A DNA stretch of 24,797 nt, taken from positions 1 through 24,797 of IMG/VR virus record IMGVR_UViG_3300033153_005839; one strand, 5' to 3'. The notes beneath the pieces were generated by a model. It did no database searches and was not told where the DNA came from. It saw only the letters and a list, made by a program, of their open reading frames with translations. The position numbers and the translations under genes were made by a program. This DNA comes from a virus. Positions 2,828 to 20,286 of the stretch are shown here, in pieces (the first letter of the stretch is position 1; every line of letters begins with the position of its first letter).

Positions 2828-3032
2828 ATGCATTCCTCAACCCTTCTTGTTCAGCAAGTGATTTCACTAATGCTGTTGTATCAATTTCTTGTTGCTCTTC
2901 AAATGCATCCTTTTGTATTTTTAAAGCGGTGACCACCTTTCCATCTTCATACCAGCCGCGAACCATCCATGTTCCGACAATCGCGCCGAGTAATGCCGCG
3001 CCTAGCAAATAAAATTTAAGTTGAGTCAACAT
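2718..3032 (-). CDS. i-spanin (Rz-like inner-membrane spanin subunit)
   Basis: A 104-aa type II membrane protein. An N-terminal transmembrane segment at about residues 5-25 (LKFYLLGAALLGAIVGTWMV) is followed by a charged helical periplasmic domain (residues 30-90) with coiled-coil character. This is the standard i-spanin plan. A GGGAG ribosome binding site lies about 10 nt upstream of the ATG. The gene overlaps the holin candidate upstream by 17 nt and hosts the start of the out-of-frame o-spanin gene in its 3' third. The pairing with a lipobox-bearing partner makes the spanin assignment secure even though primary sequence is poorly conserved in this class. Confidence 0.85.
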   Translation of the reverse strand: MLTQLKFYLLGAALLGAIVGTWMVRGWYEDGKVVTALKIQKDAFEEQQEIDTTALVKSLAEQEGLRNAYEELKFESTKIDLCANNGIDFLRLFNRGAVAANAKK

Positions 3033-3210
3033 TTTGTTTGTTCTCCCTATTGCGCCAAATGGCTAATATGCCTGTGATGGCAATGCCGTATTCCGCCATG
3101 CCGCCCGTAATTTTACCAAACCAAATAAACGCGTGAAACGTAATTAGTATGACAATGATTAATTTTAATGTGGTTGATTCTTTTAACTTAGTAAGCATTT
3201 CATCCATCAT
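3016..3210 (-). CDS. Holin candidate, two transmembrane segments
   Basis: A 64-aa protein, starting at the ATG 3210 that overlaps the upstream stop (ATGA, 3207-3210), with GAGGTGG just upstream. Reading continues upstream to a TTG at 3249, but that start would overlap the neighbour by 43 nt. Two hydrophobic segments are visible: LKLIIVILITFHAFIWFG (about residues 15-32) and GMAEYGIAITGILAIW (about 36-51). A short charged C-terminus (RNRENKQNVDST) follows. Small size, two membrane helices, charged tail and a place between endolysin and spanins fit a class II holin. It could also be a pinholin or antiholin; no sequence family is recognised. Confidence 0.7.
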   Translation of the reverse strand: MMDEMLTKLKESTTLKLIIVILITFHAFIWFGKITGGMAEYGIAITGILAIWRNRENKQNVDST

Positions 3211-3461
3211 TGGTGCCACCTCTGAAGTTCTTTGATTGATTTTAAGCATTGATTACAAGATGGGTTTTTACCCCGGGATTTTGATTCATAATATTCTGCT
3301 ATAATAGCAATCTGTTTTTGGGTGGCTTCATTCTCAGACGCTTCATTGTGTGAAACCAGAACACCGCCACCCGTAGTGGTTAGCAGGAACACATAAATCA
3401 CAATCACCACTTTAGGATTCTTGACTAATAGCTCAACAAGCCATTTCAAAAAATTGGTCAT
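3207..3461 (-). CDS. Small single-pass membrane protein with CxxC, lysis cassette
   Basis: An 84-aa protein with one strong transmembrane segment at about residues 14-38 (KNPKVVIVIYVFLLTTTGGGVLV). A hydrophilic C-terminal domain ends in a CNQCLKSIKELQRW motif (CxxC). The start ATG overlaps the previous stop (TAATG, 3459-3463). It has no match I recognise. It could be a second holin-like or antiholin protein, or an accessory to the exported protein encoded just upstream. The CxxC pair could form a disulphide if periplasmic. Confidence 0.75.
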   Translation of the reverse strand: MTNFLKWLVELLVKNPKVVIVIYVFLLTTTGGGVLVSHNEASENEATQKQIAIIAEYYESKSRGKNPSCNQCLKSIKELQRWHQ

Positions 3462-8103: not shown

Positions 8104-8854
8104 ACATTGCCCCGCAATCGATGCTAAAATCTAAGTGTAGCGGCTTCCGATATTTTGGATACCTGATTCTATTTGCCATCAAGTACCCGGCCTGTGTTGG
8201 GTATGTTTCCTGATTCCAAATAAAATAGAACGGATATAATTCCACGTGATTCGCCATTGCTGTCCAATTAGCATCAATCCATGCCTTTGTAACCAGCCTT
8301 TGATCGATCAACACTTTGGCACCTTCAGCGCGCAATATCCTCCCGGTGTATTGCCCGGTTGCTGTTTTGTTGTTAAATATTTTTCGCACCCGGTTTAAAT
8401 TAGCCGGGGAGAAGTTTGCCCCCATTTCACGTTCTAAAGATTGAGCAACGCCGATGAATAAATTTGCTATGAATGATGCCACCGCTGTACTCGCAATTTC
8501 AAAGCGCCAATATCGTTTCGTTGCTGATGATACCTTACGGAATATAACTTCATTTTCAGTTGGGGTTTGTATGGTGTCGAAGTCTGCTGTGTTAGCTGCA
8601 AAATTATCCGTTGAATGTTGTGGCTTAATAGTCCCGGAGTTATCCGTCAAGTTATGGCCAACAATACCCCAGCAATCCGCAGCCATTGCAGATCCCAAAT
8701 CCAAAGTGACATAAACAGTCCCGGCGGCGTTTGCTTGCCACCAAGATGAAGTCTTATATGACTTTAAATTTTCCTTATCATAACCAACAGCCGTTGACGT
8801 CACCGTGATGGTAGCGGTTTTTAAAAGATTAGTCAAACCAACATAAGCGGTCAT
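8093..8854 (-). CDS. Tail protein with discoidin-like N-terminal domain
   Basis: A 253-aa protein whose start overlaps the tape-measure stop (ATGA, 8851-8854). Residues about 30-75 (SSWWQANAAGTVYVTLDLGS followed by CWGIVGHNL) look like the core of a discoidin/F5-8 type C beta-sandwich. The second half (LEREMGANFSPANLNRVRKI, then GAKVLIDQR and ELYPFYFIWNQETYP) is typical of phage tail proteins immediately following the tape measure, which are usually distal-tail or tail-initiator components. Likely role: tail-tip assembly, possibly glycan contact through the discoidin-like part. Family resemblance is inferred from motif appearance only. Confidence 0.75.
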   Translation of the reverse strand: MTAYVGLTNLLKTATITVTSTAVGYDKENLKSYKTSSWWQANAAGTVYVTLDLGSAMAADCWGIVGHNLTDNSGTIKPQHSTDNFAANTADFDTIQTPTENEVIFRKVSSATKRYWRFEIASTAVASFIANLFIGVAQSLEREMGANFSPANLNRVRKIFNNKTATGQYTGRILRAEGAKVLIDQRLVTKAWIDANWTAMANHVELYPFYFIWNQETYPTQAGYLMANRIRYPKYRKPLHLDFSIDCGAMYDV

Positions 8855-10977
8855 ATCACATTCACCTTAATATTTGCGCCATCACCAATCTCTTCATTGA
8901 CCGCTTCAATCAAATCCCTCACAACCTCTGGGGTGAACATCGCCCCCTTAATAGTTACATTTACATCATTACGTTCTTGTGGTGCAAACGCATCGGGTGT
9001 CTCTCGCACTGGTGCCGGGTCGCTTGGTGTTCCGCTTCCCCCGGTAACATTTACCGATGAACCACCACCCGCTATTCCCGCCGCTTGAACTACCCCGGTG
9101 GCAACGATGATGCCGGCAGAAATAGCGGCCATGGTAGCAATTCCCGCCGCCGCTACCGAACCGCCAATTGGCCCAAGGTCTGCATAAGCCCGCATGATAG
9201 CAACTTGTGTATTAATAGCCAACTGTGCGAGTGCCAAGCCTTTACTAAGCGCCAACACAACTAATTGCCCCGCCTTACTTTCACCAACAACCATATTCAA
9301 TAATCCGATTGCTTGTTGCGCAACTTGCATTTTCATTGCAACTAATTGTTTGCTGAATCGCGCTTCCGCCTTTTCACGTTTATTAATTTCAGTTTGGTTT
9401 AATGCTGTGAGCTTCGTTTGGAATTGAGCCTCAGCCGCCAACAATAATTCCTTGCGCTCCAAATCCTTTACCAATCCAATTTGGAATGCATCTTCAATAG
9501 CCCATTCCTGATCTTCCCGGGCAATTGCCAATGCCTCTTCTTCAGTCAACAGGCTTTCTTGCAACTTGAATAGCGCCATCGCATACTTATCATTCAGCGC
9601 CAACTCTTCAGCCTCATATGCTTTTTCAAATGCTGCGCTGCGTGCCGCTGATTGAATTGCATCTTCCTTTGCTAACCGTTCTTTGAGTTTAATAAGGGCA
9701 TCAGCATCACCCTTCGCTTTCTCTTCAGCGGTGAGTGCTTTTCTGGCAGCCTTCGTTTGCCATATCAAATCCAATTCCTTTTCCATCGACAATAATTTTT
9801 CATCACGCAACTTGCCAATTTCCTTTGCGACCTGAAAATCCCCGCTTAAAAAAGAAGCGGATTGTGCAGCGAATGAAGCCATCACATCACCAAGCCCGGT
9901 GATGCCGACAATGATGGTGCTTATCCATTGCCCAACCCGCGTGAATACCCCAACAATTGCACGCATTGCAGGATCAAATTTGTCGCCAAGAATGAGTGCC
10001 GTGGTCTCCCATGTTGACCCCATTCGCTTCCAATCCCCATCGAGGTTATCAACCTGAATTGCTGCTTGTTCCCCGGCAACATTAGTATCAGTCATTTGCC
10101 CGGTTAGCTTTTTAAGAAGCTCAACATTGCCAACCATTGCTCTGGCCGCTGTTATGTTTCGCTTGCCAAATATAGCAAGCATCTCATTCGGGGACATGCC
10201 GGACTCTGCTAGGTTCTGCATTGCTTGCGTGAAGCCAACCATCGCCGGTTTAAATTTTTCATTTGTTTGCTTGGAAAGATTCAGATAAATATTACGCAAA
10301 TCAGTACCGGCCTCACTACCAAAGATGGTGTTCTTTGCCAATACTTGAATGGCCGCATTCATTTCTTCAAACCCGGTTCCCGCGACTCCGGCAACAAGAC
10401 CTGCTTTTGCAATTGCTTCCGATGTATCCGAGATGACTGATGAACCATACTTGGAACCCGCCGCCAATACGTTGATGAATCGGTTAGCTTGATCCGCGCT
10501 CGCACCGGTTTGATTCAAAGCAAGGGTTAGTGTCTTTGCTGCGTCAGGTAAAGTTGACCCCGATGCTTCAGCCAGTGTGATTGCTTCGGCTGTTACTGCC
10601 GCCAATGCTTCCCCGCTTTCTAACAAATCAGGTTTTGCTGACGCAACTAATCTGAAAGCCTCAGCCGCTTGAGATGCACTCAAGGTAGTTGCTGCGCCAA
10701 ACTCTAGTGATTTCATTGTAAGGAATTCAAGATCTTTACCCGTTGCCCCGGTGATAGCAGACAACTCAGATATGGATTTGCTAAAATCTTTCCAGACGCT
10801 TGTAATGGCACCAATCGCACGAAACGCGATGTATGCGGCAGTCATCACACGCGTTGCGGTGCTTAATGACTTTGTTAACCTCTGTGTTTCAGTGAGGTCT
10901 TTTTTAATCTTTTTAAACGCGGCCTTTGTTTTGTTACTTGCTGTTACTTCGATGCGCGTTTCGTTTGTTACCGGCAT
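8851..10977 (-). CDS. Tail tape measure protein (TP901-type core)
   Basis: A 708-aa protein that sets tail length and is ejected ahead of DNA. The reading frame extends upstream to a TTG at 10986, but I start at the ATG 10977 because GAGG lies 10 nt upstream of it and would be too close to the TTG. Residues about 65-330 form the TP901-type tape-measure core (SELSAITGATGKDLEFL, ASQAAEAF, LRNIYLNLSK, MSPNEMLAIFGKRN). Hydrophobic segments lie near 335-365 (IVGVFTRVGQWISTIIVGI) and about 570-640 (long Ala/Gly-rich stretch). A charged coiled-coil region separates them. The C-terminus ends in a soluble domain (DVNVTIKGAMFTPEVVRDLI). At the usual ~1.5 A per residue the tail would be about 100 nm, an estimate. 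It overlaps the chaperone extension frame by 44 nt. Confidence 0.93.
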   Translation of the reverse strand: MPVTNETRIEVTASNKTKAAFKKIKKDLTETQRLTKSLSTATRVMTAAYIAFRAIGAITSVWKDFSKSISELSAITGATGKDLEFLTMKSLEFGAATTLSASQAAEAFRLVASAKPDLLESGEALAAVTAEAITLAEASGSTLPDAAKTLTLALNQTGASADQANRFINVLAAGSKYGSSVISDTSEAIAKAGLVAGVAGTGFEEMNAAIQVLAKNTIFGSEAGTDLRNIYLNLSKQTNEKFKPAMVGFTQAMQNLAESGMSPNEMLAIFGKRNITAARAMVGNVELLKKLTGQMTDTNVAGEQAAIQVDNLDGDWKRMGSTWETTALILGDKFDPAMRAIVGVFTRVGQWISTIIVGITGLGDVMASFAAQSASFLSGDFQVAKEIGKLRDEKLLSMEKELDLIWQTKAARKALTAEEKAKGDADALIKLKERLAKEDAIQSAARSAAFEKAYEAEELALNDKYAMALFKLQESLLTEEEALAIAREDQEWAIEDAFQIGLVKDLERKELLLAAEAQFQTKLTALNQTEINKREKAEARFSKQLVAMKMQVAQQAIGLLNMVVGESKAGQLVVLALSKGLALAQLAINTQVAIMRAYADLGPIGGSVAAAGIATMAAISAGIIVATGVVQAAGIAGGGSSVNVTGGSGTPSDPAPVRETPDAFAPQERNDVNVTIKGAMFTPEVVRDLIEAVNEEIGDGANIKVNVI

Positions 10978-11619
10978 TTTTAGCAATCCTCAAATCGATT
11001 AGTTCCATGGCATCTATATAAAAGTTTGGCTGTTTTAAAAGGCCACCATCAAATGGTAAAATTCCGTTTTTATAATGTCCATATAATTTCAGCAACATTC
11101 TCGATTGATCATTCACCATAGGCAATAAACAAATGTCACTTTCAATTACATCCGGGATACACCATTTGTTATACCCCGCTGGGTTCTCCTTGCCGCAATG
11201 CTTGTGTAAACATTTATCGCACTTGAATTGATTAGTTGTGTCACTGCTAACCTCAAGTGCGATTATTAGTTTTTTGAGTCATCCTCATCAGGCGAACTGC
11301 GGTTGATTATTTCAGTGAAAATCTCCGTCAATGTCCCAACCGGAATGCGCCCAAAGTTTAAGCGTGAAAATTTAATCTCTTTGCCGTCAGCATCATTAAA
11401 GTTAGACCAACCAACGAGCCCATGCTTCAATGTGAACCGCATCGTGCGGTCTGAAAATGTTATGTTGCCTTCCGGGGTTTCATTCCCTTCTGCCATAACA
11501 CCCATATATTGCTGGCCATCCATAGCCTTGAGTTTAAATTTTGTCGGCTCATCATCATCTTTATCACCTTCCGTGATAAAGTCTGATGCAATGATTTTCT
11601 CTAGTGCTTTAATTGACAT
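10934..11619 (-). CDS. Tail assembly chaperone GT fusion made by -1 frameshift
   Basis: Predicted 228-aa product. Ribosomes read the 117 codons of the G-like ORF, slip back one base on A AAA AAC (11275-11269), and continue in a second frame from 11269 to the stop at 10934-10936, adding 111 residues. The second frame is open throughout and has no credible independent ribosome binding site, as expected for a T-like extension. Its N-terminal part has clustered Cys/His (FKCDKCLHKHC followed by WC and DIC). The rest is helical and basic (MLLKLYGHYKNGILPFD). In lambda and many long-tailed phages, G and GT chaperones bind the tape measure and recruit tail tube subunits. The position between tail tube and tape measure genes is exactly the conserved one. 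Confidence 0.88.
11216..11275 (-). promoter_or_regulatory. Programmed -1 ribosomal frameshift signal (heptamer plus hairpin)
   Basis: Reading the minus strand, the slippery heptamer A AAA AAC occupies 11275-11269 in the G frame, just before its TAA stop (11268-11266). After a 5-nt spacer, ATCGCACTTGA (11263-11253) pairs perfectly with TCAAGTGCGAT (11226-11216), an 11-bp stem. Inside it, GGTTAG and CTAATC can pair further (one G-U), with an AAT bulge and an 11-nt loop. Heptamer, spacer and stem all match the established rules for -1 frameshifting, and the shifted frame is open for 111 codons. Confidence 0.92.
11266..11619 (-). CDS. Tail assembly chaperone, G-like (unshifted product)
   Basis: A 117-aa acidic protein (start MSIKALEKIIASDF, with an acidic GDKDDDEPTKF region and an SSPDEDDSKN tail). 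It has AAGGAAGG 5 nt upstream of the ATG. It is the normally terminated product; a fraction of ribosomes instead produces the GT fusion. Residues about 27-70 (KFKLKAMDGQQYMGVMAEG) and 85-108 (KFSRLNFGRIPVGTLTEIFTEI) are consistent with the small mixed fold of tail assembly chaperones, though the sequence itself is not diagnostic. The call depends on gene order and the frameshift signal at its 3' end. Confidence 0.85.
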   Translation of the reverse strand: MSIKALEKIIASDFITEGDKDDDEPTKFKLKAMDGQQYMGVMAEGNETPEGNITFSDRTMRFTLKHGLVGWSNFNDADGKEIKFSRLNFGRIPVGTLTEIFTEIINRSSPDEDDSKN

Positions 11620-11655: not shown

Positions 11656-12582
11656 TTATGTTAATGCGATTGACACTTCATCATCGGTAGTCGATTCAGC
11701 AGCCGCATAAGTTAATTCGAGTGTACGGATACCATCACGATCCCCGGGTGCAATATCTCGATAGTAAATGGCCGGGTGACTAATGTTAATTATATTGCCA
11801 GCCGTTCCACCGATAGCTCCAGAAGCAACCGCACCGGTTGTCCCCGCTTTAAAGTTAGCGTCAAATGCTTCGGTTGCTACCAACACATGTTCAGGATCCA
11901 ACGAGCCGTTAACATCGCGGCCAATCACCCGGACTTCGCCAAAACCATCGGGTGATGATGGATCTGGAGGGAATGCCAATTCATTCCCCATATCAAAATT
12001 CCATGCTCCGATTATCTGTGAATAAGAGAACGCGGAAAATGCTGCATTAATAAATGGAGCCGGGATTGTGGAATCATATGTTGGTGATGGTAATGTTACA
12101 TCAGTCACCGCTGAGGAATGACCCGTCATTGTAAATGACATCTTGATCAGCCCACCAACTTCCATTGCGAAACTTACGTTGCCACGGCAACCAGTTAGCT
12201 TCATCAATGTACCATCTTGGTAATAATAAATTGTTACAGACTTGTGCCCGGTAGATGCTGGTGCATAAGTCACGGACGTAACGGCAACAACCGTTTCAGC
12301 AAAGCCACAAGCCTCTAATAAATCAGCCGCTTCTGGTGGAGTGCCTGCTGTGCCTGAGCCTTTCAATTCCATATCGAATGAAATGGTGCGTAATAGCCCA
12401 CCAAACACATGTTGTAATTTTCCGATACTTGCCCGGGTGGCTGGCCGCTCATTCATGCGCAAACCTTCATTAGCCCAATTTGGCGCTTCAACTAACACCG
12501 CATCGGTGTTTGCTATCGGCACCGGATCTGTATTGTATGTAACTTCTTCTTTGACTAAAATAACTTCACGATTGATAAGCAT
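11656..12582 (-). CDS. Major tail tube protein
   Basis: A 308-aa beta-rich protein, predicted to polymerise into the tail tube. Features typical of siphophage tube proteins are the N-terminus MLINREVILVKEEVTYNTDP (an E-x-T-Y-x-T-D-P segment) and then PATRASIGKLQHVFGGLLRTISF. Multiple strands follow (SFDMELKGSG, NVSFAMEVGGLIKMSFTMTG). It starts at ATG 12582, overlapping the stop of the small basic ORF by 1 nt (TAATG). The next gene is the tail assembly chaperone, the usual order tube, chaperone, tape measure. No separate sheath gene accompanies it, so the tail is non-contractile. Confidence 0.88.
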   Translation of the reverse strand: MLINREVILVKEEVTYNTDPVPIANTDAVLVEAPNWANEGLRMNERPATRASIGKLQHVFGGLLRTISFDMELKGSGTAGTPPEAADLLEACGFAETVVAVTSVTYAPASTGHKSVTIYYYQDGTLMKLTGCRGNVSFAMEVGGLIKMSFTMTGHSSAVTDVTLPSPTYDSTIPAPFINAAFSAFSYSQIIGAWNFDMGNELAFPPDPSSPDGFGEVRVIGRDVNGSLDPEHVLVATEAFDANFKAGTTGAVASGAIGGTAGNIINISHPAIYYRDIAPGDRDGIRTLELTYAAAESTTDDEVSIALT

Positions 12583-13903: not shown

Positions 13904-15955
13904 TTAAACACCAGGATTCTTGTAGCCGCCACGGAAGTCATTACCAGTCGTGCCGTAGTCCATGCGAACTTTCCACTGCACACCGTCAATGTTGAATCCA
14001 TTTTCTGATTCAAGATACGGAGTTTGGTTGCCATCAAGGAATGCAATCTCTAGTGTTGGCACTTCCGCCGGTGGTGCCATTAAGTACCATTCAGTCGCAT
14101 TCAAATACGGGCTAGAGATAACCTTCAGTGAATCTTTATGGACATTCACTTTCTTGCTATTGGCAACAGTGAAATCAGTCTCAGATGAAATGAGCGCTTT
14201 CAAAGTGTCTTCCAGCTCAACACCACAAACGATAATGGTTGGACGTATGCCCAGATAATCATTATCATCTGGATCCATTTGCTTACGCATCGCGGTTTTC
14301 GCTGAACTGATAAGCGCCAATGTTGGAGCCGCACCAGACGCTGCTAAGTTAGCATGAGTTGCGTGGAACAAAGCAACCGCATCGAACAATGCGGCATTAG
14401 TAGTCAAGATGCCAAACACATCGGAGTTCACGGTGCGAGCCGCAGCGCCGCCCAATAAACCAGCAATGCGCATAAAGCCATTCAGATCGTCATTGATAAT
14501 CATTTGGCGAGTTAAAGAAATCATTTTGCCTTTAGTAGCAGCTTGAATTGTTTCCTTTTCTTCTCCGAATGTACCAGATGAATATTCACTACCTTCAGGA
14601 ACCGTTGCAAGTGAATTGAATGAGCCAAGGCGGATACGAGAATTCAATTTGAAATCCGGTACACTGCCAACCAAACAAATTTCACGCCAGCTTTGTTCAA
14701 ACGATCCATAGGCGCGTTGTAATTCTTTGCCTAAGCTATTTTCAAGCAAGTAAGGAAAATCACTTGATGTATGTGTAAACGCCGCAGCAATGATTTTCAT
14801 CTTGTCCATACCAACCATCGATACATTCGCCATGCTTAATGATGCCTTTGCGATGTCGAGTAATGTATGGCCGCGCATTTCATTTTTGCCGTCATCTTTT
14901 TCAACACCGGAGCGAATCGCCAACGCTTGCGAAGCACCAACGCGGAATTTATCGCGCTCATCAGCAAGAGTAAGAATGCGAACATCGTCAGCAACCGGAG
15001 ATGCATTTGTTCGCTTGCCAATAGCATCAAGTAAAATCGTAGATGCCATTTCAGCCGTAGTGTTCTGATCTTCAAGGCATGCTTTTAATTCTTTATCAAA
15101 ATCACTGCCATGCGCGCTGAAAGTAGTATTGATTGATTTTTGGCGCGCACCTTCTTTGGCCAACGCTTCTTCAGTGGCTTGCTTTGCAATTGCCAATGCT
15201 TTTGTTTCCATTTCTGCTTTTGCTTTTGCTTCGGCAGCCTTCTTTTCTTTTTCGGTTAACATAATGTCATCCACCTTTGTTGTGTCGGCCACCGCCAACG
15301 TGTTTTCAATTACAGGTTTTTTCTCCTGTGGTTTTTCGCCAAGATACTGTGCCAATATATGGGACGGTACATTGTCAAACTTGTTCAGGTCGAAGCTCGC
15401 TGCAACATCTACTTCGCCTGTTATCTCATCAATGAAACCAAAATCCAATGCCTCTTCAGCATTCATCCAAGTCTCATCATTCATTAGCCCATCGATTGTT
15501 TCAAGATCAATCCCGGTGCGTGCGGCATATGTCGCTGCCATATTATCTTTCATTTTATCGATAACATCAGCGGTCTTGCGCAAGTCATCGGACTCACCAA
15601 ACCCTCCACCTTGTGGGTTGTGTACCATCATCAAACCGTTCGCGGCCATATTAATATGATCACCGGCCATAGCGATAAGGGAACCCATTGAAAATGCAGC
15701 GCCATCGATATGAACAACAACACGCGCATCGTGGTTCTTCAAAATATTATAAATGGCGGTGCCATCCATAACCGAACCCCCCGGGCTATTCAAATATAAA
15801 TTGATGATCTTCGCATCTTTAATTGCTTTCATATCTGTCATAAATGACTTTGCTGAAACACCCCAATATCCGATTTCTTCATAAATGGTGATGTCGGCAA
15901 CATTCGCACCTTTGCCAACAATCGTGTACCAGCTGTTACTCTTCTTTTTCTTCAT
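13904..15955 (-). CDS. ClpP-like prohead protease / major capsid protein fusion
   Basis: A 683-aa polyprotein starting at ATG 15955 (AGGAG about 8 nt upstream); the frame is open further upstream but that would overlap portal codons. Residues 1-205 are an S14/ClpP-type protease with Ser89 (AFSMGS), His112 (MMVHNP) and Asp176 (GFIDEI) as the probable triad. Residues about 230-275 are an Ala/Glu/Lys-rich coiled coil, probably the scaffold. From about residue 330 comes an HK97-fold capsid protein of the Mu-gpT-like sort (LADERDKFRVGASQAL, FEQSWREICLVGSVPDF, FNIDGVQWKVRMDYG). Fused protease-capsid proteins are known; the protease cleaves the scaffold during maturation. It is preceded by the portal gene with a 20-nt overlap and followed by a terminator. 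Confidence 0.93.
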   Translation of the reverse strand: MKKKKSNSWYTIVGKGANVADITIYEEIGYWGVSAKSFMTDMKAIKDAKIINLYLNSPGGSVMDGTAIYNILKNHDARVVVHIDGAAFSMGSLIAMAGDHINMAANGLMMVHNPQGGGFGESDDLRKTADVIDKMKDNMAATYAARTGIDLETIDGLMNDETWMNAEEALDFGFIDEITGEVDVAASFDLNKFDNVPSHILAQYLGEKPQEKKPVIENTLAVADTTKVDDIMLTEKEKKAAEAKAKAEMETKALAIAKQATEEALAKEGARQKSINTTFSAHGSDFDKELKACLEDQNTTAEMASTILLDAIGKRTNASPVADDVRILTLADERDKFRVGASQALAIRSGVEKDDGKNEMRGHTLLDIAKASLSMANVSMVGMDKMKIIAAAFTHTSSDFPYLLENSLGKELQRAYGSFEQSWREICLVGSVPDFKLNSRIRLGSFNSLATVPEGSEYSSGTFGEEKETIQAATKGKMISLTRQMIINDDLNGFMRIAGLLGGAAARTVNSDVFGILTTNAALFDAVALFHATHANLAASGAAPTLALISSAKTAMRKQMDPDDNDYLGIRPTIIVCGVELEDTLKALISSETDFTVANSKKVNVHKDSLKVISSPYLNATEWYLMAPPAEVPTLEIAFLDGNQTPYLESENGFNIDGVQWKVRMDYGTTGNDFRGGYKNPGV

Positions 15956-17450
15956 CGGGTGGCTCCTCTGTTTTTTCTGTCTTGTCGGACTCTTCTGTTT
16001 TTTCTGGTGGTGTGAGCCCGGCATCTTTTTCTTGCTGCGCTTCTTCAATACGTTGTTGCAATATTTCTTCAGGGTCACCATTGCGCCGTCTTATGATCGC
16101 TGTTTTTGACGAGATGCCTGTTGTCAATTCTTTTTCTATTCCATCCATTTCTTTCTTTGGATCGATCCATGTTAGCGGTGGCCGGGTAAAGCTCACATCA
16201 TACAATGTGCTTTCATCGATGTCCGCAAAATCCTTTAATAGTCTTGCGGTGACAGCCATCTTCAAAAATTCTTCATAAATTGGTAACACTTGACGTTTTG
16301 AAAAGTATGACCATAAAATTCCATAACTCATATATTGTTCAACTAACTCTTGGCGCTGCGCGGAATATGTGCCATTATAATTCTTGGCAATACTGCTGAA
16401 GCTAGTCCCGGCTCCCGCCGCGGCAAAACGCAAATTCATATCCAGAAATGGAATGACCTCGTTGTTTGGTCGATTGCTATTTGTCGTTTGTACTTCTTCA
16501 CCCGCTTTTAAATCATCAAAAATCATTCCCGGCATGAATTCCATTTCACGGTATTCATCGGAATTGTTTGGGGCAACATACATATCTGGTGCGCCCTTCC
16601 TTATGAACCCGGCCATGGCAGCGGCAACTCGTGCAGCAACCCGTTCCGATTCCTCAATGTATTTTATATCTTCAAAACGCTGCATGATGGTGGAGAACAT
16701 CGTCACGCCGCGCGTCTGTCTAATTCGATCAGTCAACTTCAAGTGTAGTATATTTTTTGCCGGGACGCGCTTGGTGTCTTGGGTTGATAACAAACCAAAA
16801 CTTCCTGCGGCATTAGCATTGATGTCCAAGTTCTTGTAAATGTGATATGCGTTTGGACAGCCCCATTTATTCTTTTGAACCCCTTGTACAATGCCCTTCT
16901 TATCATCATTCAAATTTAACGGGACATAATCGGCCTCAATTAGCTCATATGAAAATGGCACAATGGTCTTATGATCAAGAGACTTCATATTGCCTGAAAT
17001 AAGTTGGGTGAATAATTCTCCGTCACGCAACCAAGTTCGACATGCTATGCGTTGGGCTGAAGCCTCATCATAATCACAGGTCACTTCAGGATTGCGTGCC
17101 CAATTTTTATATAGCTTTAATACTTCTTTGTTGGCCTCGGTGTGTAAATCCCCTTGCCCGTTTTTGATCATTGGTATCGGGTGAATGCCCATGCCAACAA
17201 CGTTCGCAACGAGGGTGGTCAATACCCCTTTGGCGAGATCGTAATTTTGTTCAAGGTGCCTTGCGTTGGCGCGTAAATTAGCCGAAGCGGCATTCACATC
17301 AACGTCCGGGCTAGTATTTGATACACGTTGCTTTAAAGTATTACTTGCTTGCCCGCTTTCATAATATGCTTTGACTGCTTGCTTACCTTGCAGCCTGCGC
17401 ACTCCATATCGAGGAAACATTGATACAATTATATCATCAATAAACTTCAT
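15936..17450 (-). CDS. Portal protein (lambda gpB-like)
   Basis: A 504-aa portal protein, the dodecameric ring at the packaging vertex. The lambda-type pattern is clear: an N-terminal RLQGKQAVKAYYESGQ, LRANARHLEQNYDLAKGVLTTLVANVVG, a long middle region with VQGVQKNKWGCPNAYHIYK, IRQTRGVTMFSTIM, FAAAGAGTSFSSIAKNYNGTYSAQR and LTWIDPKKEMDGIEKEL. The C-terminus is acidic and rich in Glu, Lys, Asp and Pro. The start overlaps the previous stop by ATGA (17447-17450). It lies between the DUF6148/gpW-like joiner and the protease-capsid gene, the lambda W-B-C order. Confidence 0.95.
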   Translation of the reverse strand: MKFIDDIIVSMFPRYGVRRLQGKQAVKAYYESGQASNTLKQRVSNTSPDVDVNAASANLRANARHLEQNYDLAKGVLTTLVANVVGMGIHPIPMIKNGQGDLHTEANKEVLKLYKNWARNPEVTCDYDEASAQRIACRTWLRDGELFTQLISGNMKSLDHKTIVPFSYELIEADYVPLNLNDDKKGIVQGVQKNKWGCPNAYHIYKNLDINANAAGSFGLLSTQDTKRVPAKNILHLKLTDRIRQTRGVTMFSTIMQRFEDIKYIEESERVAARVAAAMAGFIRKGAPDMYVAPNNSDEYREMEFMPGMIFDDLKAGEEVQTTNSNRPNNEVIPFLDMNLRFAAAGAGTSFSSIAKNYNGTYSAQRQELVEQYMSYGILWSYFSKRQVLPIYEEFLKMAVTARLLKDFADIDESTLYDVSFTRPPLTWIDPKKEMDGIEKELTTGISSKTAIIRRRNGDPEEILQQRIEEAQQEKDAGLTPPEKTEESDKTEKTEEPPDEEKEE

Positions 17451-17675: not shown

Positions 17676-18014
17676 TTAATCGGCCTCCACTGTGAATGTG
17701 ACTTTGCCGTGCAATGTTTGCGCGGGTGTTGAATCTGTGGTGCATGAAACATTGACCGCGTATGTTACGCCAGCAACCCCGCCCGACACCGCAAACTGAA
17801 CCGCTTTCCCAGATGCCACAACAACTCCGCTAATTGTTAGCGCGGCGGTTGAAACAACTTTATTTGACAAGGCTAAATCGGTTGTGGTAACTTCAGCCAC
17901 CGTGGGTGTGCCGGTTAGTAGCTCGGCTGACTCCAACTTTCCAATAAATGAAACTGCGGCGTTCAATACTTCTGAAACCGTCTTGGCTGGAATTTCTATC
18001 GCTGTGTGCGTCAT
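17676..18014 (-). CDS. Small Ig-like protein, probable fibre-tail adaptor type
   Basis: A 112-aa protein starting with an ATGA overlap (18011-18014) to the repeat gene. Sequence is of the immunoglobulin-like beta-sandwich type: AELLTGTPTVAEVTTTDLAL, NKVVSTAALTISGVVVASGKAVQF, SGGVAGVTYAVNVSCTTD and GKVTFTVEAD. Small phage proteins of this form are sometimes called fibre-tail adaptor or Ig-like structural proteins. The position in the surface-protein block, directly downstream of the repeat protein, suggests a partner of it. Specific function is unproven. Confidence 0.7.
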   Translation of the reverse strand: MTHTAIEIPAKTVSEVLNAAVSFIGKLESAELLTGTPTVAEVTTTDLALSNKVVSTAALTISGVVVASGKAVQFAVSGGVAGVTYAVNVSCTTDSTPAQTLHGKVTFTVEAD

Positions 18015-18565
18015 TCATCCACCGTGAAATCAAACTTATTGTGGGGCAATGCAAAATCAAAATCATCACCTTTGATATCGTAGTATAACCGAGAATCCAA
18101 TAATGTAAACTGGAAATCAGAGAAATCAATAATTACATTGACCGCCGCATACGTCAAAGTGATCGCGGTTCCGGTTAAATTGAAGGTGCCGAACTCTGCA
18201 TCAAGTTCTCTAAACACTGATAATGTTGCCGGGATTCCGGTTAAAGCGAATGTCCCGGGGTCACAATCAAACTGATATGTTCTTGCTAACTTGGTTGCGG
18301 CTCCGGTTAAAACAAGCGATCCAAATTCTGCATTGAGTTCTCTTGTGGATATTAAGTCAGCAGCGGTGCCTGTTAAAGTGAATGTGCCAAATTCTGCATC
18401 AAGCGGATATTGAATCGAGAAATCAGCAGCGGCTCCGGTTAAAGTGAATGTGCCAAATTCTGCATCGAGTTCTCTTGTGAGTAATAAATCAGCGGCTGTG
18501 CCTGTTAAAACAAAAGTCCCCGGGTCTGCGGCAAGTGCCTTATCCCCGGTGCCTGAATAACTCAA
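18011..18565 (-). CDS. 3' part of split repeat protein, possible separate product
   Basis: The downstream frame is open from the duplication to 18011, but its first possible start is a TTG at 18565, with no good ribosome binding site. Translation from there would give 184 residues with six repeats (LAADPGTFVLTG, LDAEFGTFTLTG, FDCDPGTFALTG) and the C-terminal cap domain. This entry records that possibility; more likely the whole region 19216-18011 is the untranslated or frameshift-dependent tail of the split gene. Confidence 0.35.
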   Translation of the reverse strand: MSYSGTGDKALAADPGTFVLTGTAADLLLTRELDAEFGTFTLTGAAADFSIQYPLDAEFGTFTLTGTAADLISTRELNAEFGSLVLTGAATKLARTYQFDCDPGTFALTGIPATLSVFRELDAEFGTFNLTGTAITLTYAAVNVIIDFSDFQFTLLDSRLYYDIKGDDFDFALPHNKFDFTVDE

Positions 18566-19216
18566 AGTGGCGGCGGCTCCGGTTAAAGCGAATGTGCCCG
18601 GGTCGCATGGTAATTCTCTTAATGTTAATAAATCAGCAGCCGTCCCGGTTAAAGTGAATGTGCCCGGGTCTGCGGCAAGTGGATAATGCCTTAATAAAGT
18701 TGCAGCGGTTCCGGTTAAAACAAACGATCCAGATTCTGCATTGAGTGGATAATGCCTTAATAAAGTTGCAGCGGTTCCGGTTAAAGCAAATGTGCCCGGG
18801 TCTGCGGCAAGTGTTTTTTCACCACCGGAATAGTTTAGATCAGCAGCGGTTCCGGTTAAAGTGAATGTGCCAAATTCTGCATCGAGTTCTCTTGTGAGTA
18901 ATAAATCAGCGGCGGTTCCGGTTAAAGTGAATGTGCCCGGGTCGCATGGTAATTCTCTTGCAAGTAATAAATCAGCAGCGGCTCCGGTTAAAGTGAATGT
19001 GCCAAATTCTGCATCGAGTTCTCTTGTGAGTAATAAATCAGCAGCGGCTCCGGTTAAAGTGAATGTGCCAAATTCTGCATCGAGTTCTCTTGCAAGTATT
19101 AAGTCAGCAGCGGCTCCGGTTAAAGTGAATGTGCCAAATTCTGCATCGAGTTCTCTTGTGAGTAATAAATCAGCAGCGGCTCCGTTTAAAGTGAATGTGC
19201 CCGGGTCTGCCGCTAA
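18155..19216 (-). repeat. Array of 16 coding 66-bp repeats (22 aa each)
   Basis: Sixteen copies of a 22-residue unit, core DAEFGTFTLTGTAADLL with variants DPGTF, CDPGTF, NAESGSF. Two linker insertions (YSGGEKT, YSGTGDKA) break the period. Many adjacent copies are identical or nearly identical at DNA level, including third codon positions, which implies recent expansion or gene conversion. The array follows the 14-bp duplication directly. Confidence 0.9.
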
Positions 19217-19230
19217 GGGTCTGCCGCTAA
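19203..19230. repeat. Exact 14-bp tandem duplication causing frameshift
   Basis: GGGTCTGCCGCTAA occurs at 19203-19216 and again at 19217-19230. The length of 14 nt is not a multiple of three. On the coding strand the second reading encounters CCT TAG. Deleting either copy fuses the two flanking frames into one. Confidence 0.97.
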
Positions 19231-20286
19231 AGAATATGGTGAACCGCTTGCGGCGGTATCGATTGTGAATGTCGGTGTCGCAACTAATTCTGTAGCACCT
19301 GTTAATGCCGCCGCTGGAATTGTTGCGGTCACTGTTTCTTGTGCCGCTATATCGTAACCTGCCGCTGCGGTGAATGTGATTGTTACTACGGTGGGCGATG
19401 TTCTAACAACCGCAGTCACAACCTCTCTGTCTCTTACTTCCCGATCCCATTCACTATCAGCATACCCAAGATCCGCAGCGGTTCCGGTTAAAGCAAAAGT
19501 GCCCGGGTCGCATGGCAATTTTCTTAATGCCAATAAAGTCGCAGCGGTTCCGGTTAAAGCAAAAGTGCCCGGGTCGCATGGCAATTTTCTTAATGCCAAT
19601 AAATCAGCAGCCGTCCCGGTTAAAACAAACGATCCAAATTCTGCATCAAGTTCCCTTAATGCCAATAAAGTCGCGGCGGTTCCGGTTAAAACAAACGATC
19701 CAAATTCTGCATCGAGTGGATAATGCCTTAATAAAGTTGCAGCCGCCCCGGTTAAAGTGAATGTGCCCGGGTCTGCCGGTAATGAATATGGTGAACCACT
19801 TCCCGGTGTGTATGTGATAACAACTTGAAACGTATCTATGTGCCAAGTGTTAGCCGTAGGCATTCCACCTTGAACCCCGACAACATCGACTTGCATTCCA
19901 TTGAGCTGTGCTACCGTCCAATCACTATTCCATGCGCCAGTATTTCTTGATCCTAAAGTTTGATGGGTGTTAGTAAGTTCTCCTGCTGAACCTGCTACTG
20001 CGCCTTGCCCCGTTCCTCCTATAACTAAATCAACTTCAAAACTTTCATCACCACCATCGGTAGTAACTCTGCCGCGTAGTACAATTGAAACATTAGTAAT
20101 GGTATCCGCGTCAACAATATCAACGACATTGGCCATGTCAATAGTAACAACATCACCTTCGCCATCCGAGTCCGAAGAAATTTCATTACCGTCAGCCGCA
20201 GCAATTCCTTCAGATATGTTGCTGCCTGTTCCACTCCAGCCTGTGCCGGAATAAGTACCATCGGGGAATAGAATCTCTTCAGCCAT
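19213..20286 (-). CDS. 5' part of split repeat protein, 357 aa
   Basis: As the sequence stands, this ORF runs from the ATG at 20286 (TAATG overlap with the Cys-rich gene) to the TAG created by the 14-bp duplication. The N-terminal domain has a lectin/jelly-roll-like beta pattern (GDVVTIDMANVVDIVDADT, TNVSIVLRGRVTT, MPTANTWHIDTFQVVITYTPGSG). Five repeats of the DPGTFTLTGTAATLL type follow, then a phage beta domain (REVVTAVVRTSPTVVTITF and further to ALTGATELVATPTFTID). If stable, it would be a shortened surface protein carrying 5 of the 21 repeats. I prefer to read it as the head of a broken 753-aa protein. Confidence 0.75.
   Translation of the reverse strand: MAEEILFPDGTYSGTGWSGTGSNISEGIAAADGNEISSDSDGEGDVVTIDMANVVDIVDADTITNVSIVLRGRVTTDGGDESFEVDLVIGGTGQGAVAGSAGELTNTHQTLGSRNTGAWNSDWTVAQLNGMQVDVVGVQGGMPTANTWHIDTFQVVITYTPGSGSPYSLPADPGTFTLTGAAATLLRHYPLDAEFGSFVLTGTAATLLALRELDAEFGSFVLTGTAADLLALRKLPCDPGTFALTGTAATLLALRKLPCDPGTFALTGTAADLGYADSEWDREVRDREVVTAVVRTSPTVVTITFTAAAGYDIAAQETVTATIPAAALTGATELVATPTFTIDTAASGSPYSLAADP
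19468..19782 (-). repeat. Array of 5 coding 66-bp repeats
   Basis: Five copies of the same 22-residue unit as in the downstream array, with LPADPGTFTLTG, LDAEFGSFVLTG and LPCDPGTFALTG versions and LLALRK/LLRHYP linkers. Two neighbouring copies (LPCDPGTFALTGTAAT and LPCDPGTFALTGTAAD) are nearly identical in DNA. Confidence 0.9.

Follow-up and report, generated by a model that had tools for sequence, protein, structure and literature searches.

Two reading frames meet on the minus strand of a 24,797-base viral contig (hereafter, the window) from an uncultured tailed phage, between the gene for the tail tube protein and that for the tape measure protein. Does their junction encode a programmed −1 ribosomal frameshift, as had been predicted from the sequence, or is the second frame a gene of its own or the product of an error? 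We conclude that the junction is almost certainly a frameshift of the lambda G/GT type, with a 117-aa G protein and a rarer 228-aa GT protein as the predicted products.

Anatomy of the G–T junction

Every coordinate of the original prediction was reproduced base for base. Gene G (11266 to 11619, minus strand, as are all features below) starts with ATG, carries AAGGAAGG 5 nt upstream of this codon, and ends with TCA AAA AAC TAA. The slippery heptamer A_AAA_AAC (AAAAAAC, 11269 to 11275) is in frame and abuts the stop codon TAA (11268 to 11266). The spacer TAATA (5 nt, 11264 to 11268), which includes the stop codon, is followed by a perfect 11-bp stem, formed by the 5′ arm ATCGCACTTGA (11253 to 11263) and the 3′ arm TCAAGTGCGAT (11216 to 11226). 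The 3′ arm overlaps the codon for the first conserved Cys in T. The inner part (11227 to 11252) comprises a 6-bp inner stem (GGTTAG with CTAATC), a loop, and a 3-nt bulge, and varies between relatives.

RNAfold recovered the 11-bp stem, a 3-nt bulge (AAU) on its 3′ side and, after the bulge, the 6-bp inner stem that had been proposed, which contains one G·U pair. The energy of the stem-loop amounts to −21.2 kcal/mol (z = −4.05), and none of 200 dinucleotide shuffles was equally stable. With synonymous-codon shuffles of the T frame, which keep the protein, z was −3.25 and 6 of 1000 shuffles reached the same stability. When the whole minus strand of the window was scanned for perfect stems that reach 11 bp and enclose a loop no longer than 40, the junction stem, which presumably stimulates slippage, was the sole one found. 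The string AAAAAAC is not enriched in the window (12 occurrences versus 10.9 expected). Its frequency being ordinary, the significance of the heptamer derives from its frame, its place, the stem, and its conservation. Searches of the window for Rfam families and tRNAs returned none.

The −1 frame contains no stop between 11269 and 10937 and closes with a stop codon at 10936 to 10934, so that the T part (10934 to 11269) consists of 111 codons plus stop and the predicted fusion of 117 + 111 = 228 aa. It ends, as had been claimed, within the tape measure gene, and the overlap is 44 nt if the latter begins at ATG 10977.

Conservation of the slip site

Profile searches yielded 14 loci, two bacterial-genome loci, and 70 loci. 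These sets overlap and give 59 distinct junctions, the window included. A canonical slippery heptamer is present at the junction in all 59: 47 loci carry A_AAA_AAC, three G_GGA_AAC, and nine A_AAA_AAA, the last located one codon upstream in eight cases and at the same codons as A_AAA_AAC in one. The T frame is invariably −1 relative to G. The original prediction had named homologues without the heptamer, but with an independent second gene, as the observation that would speak against it; the opposite was found. Directly after the heptamer position, 23 loci have TAA, 16 have TGA, and 20 have a sense codon. Since the stop after the heptamer varies, it is the slip site that is conserved. The loci span a GC content of 40–68%, and slippery heptamers are kept even at 60–68% GC; thus, the A-rich heptamer is not an effect of base composition.

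The close relatives L002 and L006 and Alteromonas phage P24 (L004) all read AAAAAAC TAA, with the stem region after it. In a distant locus (L003, 2968 to 3653), a G-like reading frame precedes a Cys-containing, T-like −1 frame, and A-rich slip candidates are present. In Rhodobacter phage RcTiptonus (L005), genes 42 and 43 comprise an annotated tail assembly chaperone and, after it, a hypothetical protein that weakly resembles T (E 0.9); they may be another unannotated frameshift pair.

Covariation of the stem

The original prediction had called for folding of the stem and for covariation in homologues, and both bear it out. In an alignment of 14 sequences, 80.4% of cells in the 11-bp register are paired. 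Its covariation score of 0.253 compares with 0.135 for shuffled alignments, none of 500 shuffles scored as high, and the score fell to at most 0.082 when the register was slid. RNAalifold recovered only a 5-bp core from this alignment, and the full stem was therefore assessed by protein-anchored counting, in which the 3′ arm was placed on the first conserved Cys codon, independently of the stem. Among 57 distinct loci, the register pairs in 84.4% of cells versus at most 42.8% when slid; the 481 paired cells exceed both the mean (451.4) and the maximum (465) of 2000 shuffles. These paired-cell and covariation counts are inflated by the relatedness of the loci. Compensatory changes were observed as well: one pair is GC, GU, AU, or CG depending on the locus, and the base on its 3′ side occupies the third position of a codon. 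The spacing between heptamer and stem is conserved at 5–6 nt.

The homologous stem is part of the minimum-energy fold in 29 of the 57 loci, and in the other 28 a different fold has the lowest predicted energy. The z values from synonymous shuffling are weak outside the closest group of relatives. Support for the stem is strongest in the group to which the window belongs.

The G and T proteins

The predicted G protein had no match at a meaningful score in Pfam or NCBIfam, and neither DNA nor G-protein searches against annotated phages gave matches. Three G homologues matched phrog_313 (Tail assembly chaperone) weakly, with a best E value of 0.0046. An AlphaFold2 model of G, built from 13 G sequences (pLDDT 83), was closest to B. 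subtilis YqbN among solved structures (3klu; Z 6.4, rmsd 5.2, 96 residues aligned), followed by the HK97 tail assembly chaperone gp13 (2ob9; Z 5.8, rmsd 4.5, 90 aligned) and 5ir0 (Z 5.3, rmsd 4.0, 87 aligned), after which the scores drop to Z 2.2. Several of its matches among viral models are named tail assembly chaperone. The likeness to HK97 gp13 and YqbN lies in the fold alone, with 7–15% sequence identity. These moderate scores, a modest structural match, suggest that G has the fold of a tail assembly chaperone.

The T part is Cys-rich (CxxC...HC...C) and shows 39–61% identity among relatives. It matched no family in the Pfam and PHROGs libraries, and its model (pLDDT 82.5) gave nothing convincing among solved structures (best Z 2.1). 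As a single query, T found no relative among viral contigs, whereas profile queries did; against annotated phages, it retrieved Alteromonas phage P24. Its first ATG, GTG, or TTG is codon 49, past the conserved Cys cluster. An ordinary independent start therefore cannot yield the conserved protein, and, judged by its codons, T would be reached by frameshifting only.

Neighbouring genes

The gene order is tail tube, G, T, tape measure. The tail tube gene directly upstream of G (11656 to 12582) was recognized by PF18906 (E 9.8e-17), and the tape measure gene (8851 to 10977) by PHROG tape measure families (E values down to 7.8e-35) and PF10145. Its start is most likely ATG 10977 rather than the TTG at 10986 chosen by the ORF caller, as suggested by alignment with the homologue in L006 (ATGCCAGTGAC), in which MPVTNETR of the window faces MPVTETRV.

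Two other minus-strand regions of the window deserve mention. A single reading frame at 13904 to 16081 carries both a ClpP-type protease domain and a major capsid domain (Phage_capsid_4); its listed start overlaps the preceding reading frame by 146 nt, and the true start is therefore probably internal. A repeat protein at 18011 to 20286, with repeats of ~22 aa (xADPGTFTLTGTAADLL..., 66-bp units), is split over two frames, and the frame change adjoins a 14-bp tandem duplication at 19203 to 19230. It can be read as one gene with a frame-breaking duplication, as a switchable, tail-fibre-like gene, or as an assembly error in the repeats.

Alternative explanations

Slippage might occur during transcription instead of translation, with RNA polymerase dropping or adding an A on the run of six A, so that part of the mRNA would fuse G and T. 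Such six-A runs exist, and several relatives have eight or more A (A8–A9 in some), but six A are few for polymerase slippage, and this counts against the proposal. Moreover, the three loci with G_GGA_AAC have no long homopolymer and yet possess a canonical ribosomal slip site, and a covarying stem at a conserved distance of 5–6 nt is consistent with ribosomal pausing. We regard transcriptional slippage as very unlikely. A T gene in its own right, with ribosomes re-initiating close to the stop codon of G, is scarcely credible. The T frame does open at that stop, and the rare start codons ATA and ATC are found there, but the late first start codon of T and a slippery heptamer that stays constant while junction codons and stops vary among relatives led us to reject an independent T gene.

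A metagenomic contig with two adjacent open frames also raises the suspicion that a sequencing or assembly indel has split one gene. However, 59 distinct loci, which come from many samples and include a bacterial genome contig, share the identical −1 step at the identical position, as does the isolate Alteromonas phage P24. These homologues already refute an indel, the probability of which is practically negligible, and it was rejected. A variant of the ribosomal reading assigns a role to the stop codon, which abuts the heptamer position in 39 of the 59 loci. Termination that is slow while AAC occupies the P site could favour slippage, much as it does where sites are sensitive to release factors; the G:GT ratio would then vary with release-factor activity, and T would be a previously unnamed Cys-rich, possibly metal-binding module recruiting tail tube subunits. 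We consider this variant unlikely.

Proposed mechanism and relation to known systems

The lambda-type G/GT frameshift proposed for this locus is supported by the heptamer in every locus, the constant −1 relation, the covarying stem, and the chaperone-like predicted fold of G. Most ribosomes would read G and terminate at TAA, releasing the 117-aa chaperone, while a minority would pause at the stem-loop, move back one base on A_AAA_AAC, and read T to give the 228-aa GT. By analogy with lambda, G would coat the tape measure protein, tail tube subunits would be recruited through the T extension, and neither G nor GT would be found in the finished virion. We infer the occurrence and the rate of slippage as well as the roles of G and GT. 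The programmed −1 frameshift in G/GT of phage lambda (Levin 1993; Xu 2004) is reviewed in PMC5009743. Shared with lambda are the position before the tape measure gene, the −1 shift at a heptamer near the end of G, and the combination of a short G with a long GT. Unlike lambda, the present locus has the heptamer A_AAA_AAC, a strong stem-loop at a distance of 5 nt, a stop codon directly after the heptamer, and, as T, a Cys-rich domain without Pfam or PHROGs match.

It is established that G/GT pairs use programmed −1 frameshifting, and that G binds the tape measure protein whereas the tube protein is bound by the T extension (PMC5009743). In E. coli, slippage on A_AAA_AAC is far less frequent than on A_AAA_AAG (PMC5009743); the strong stem may reflect the weaker site. 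Among the Acinetobacter phages vB_AbaS_Loki (gp12/gp13) and IME_AB3, an AAAAAAC that immediately adjoins the chaperone stop is reported for Loki, in a passage that mentions neither a stem nor covariation (PMC5313236). Caulobacter phages, a different phage group, have AAAAAAC in the phiCbK group and GGGAAAC in Colossus (PMC3556154); these are also the two heptamers that replace each other among the present loci.

Alteromonas phage P24 (MK241539.2) is the one close cultured relative. It shares the G–T arrangement, AAAAAAC TAA, and the register of the stem, and its T is 43–44% identical; the homologous stem is weaker and absent from the minimum-energy fold. In its GenBank record, G is called a hypothetical protein and the T half (3001 to 3303) is unannotated, in keeping with the earlier expectation that standard annotation misses T.

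Taken together, the frameshift signal is real and common to dozens of relatives, and its mechanism is textbook phage biology, ordinary in kind. What is new is this family only, with its Cys-rich T part that matches no library family. The finding leaves the understanding of tail assembly unchanged.
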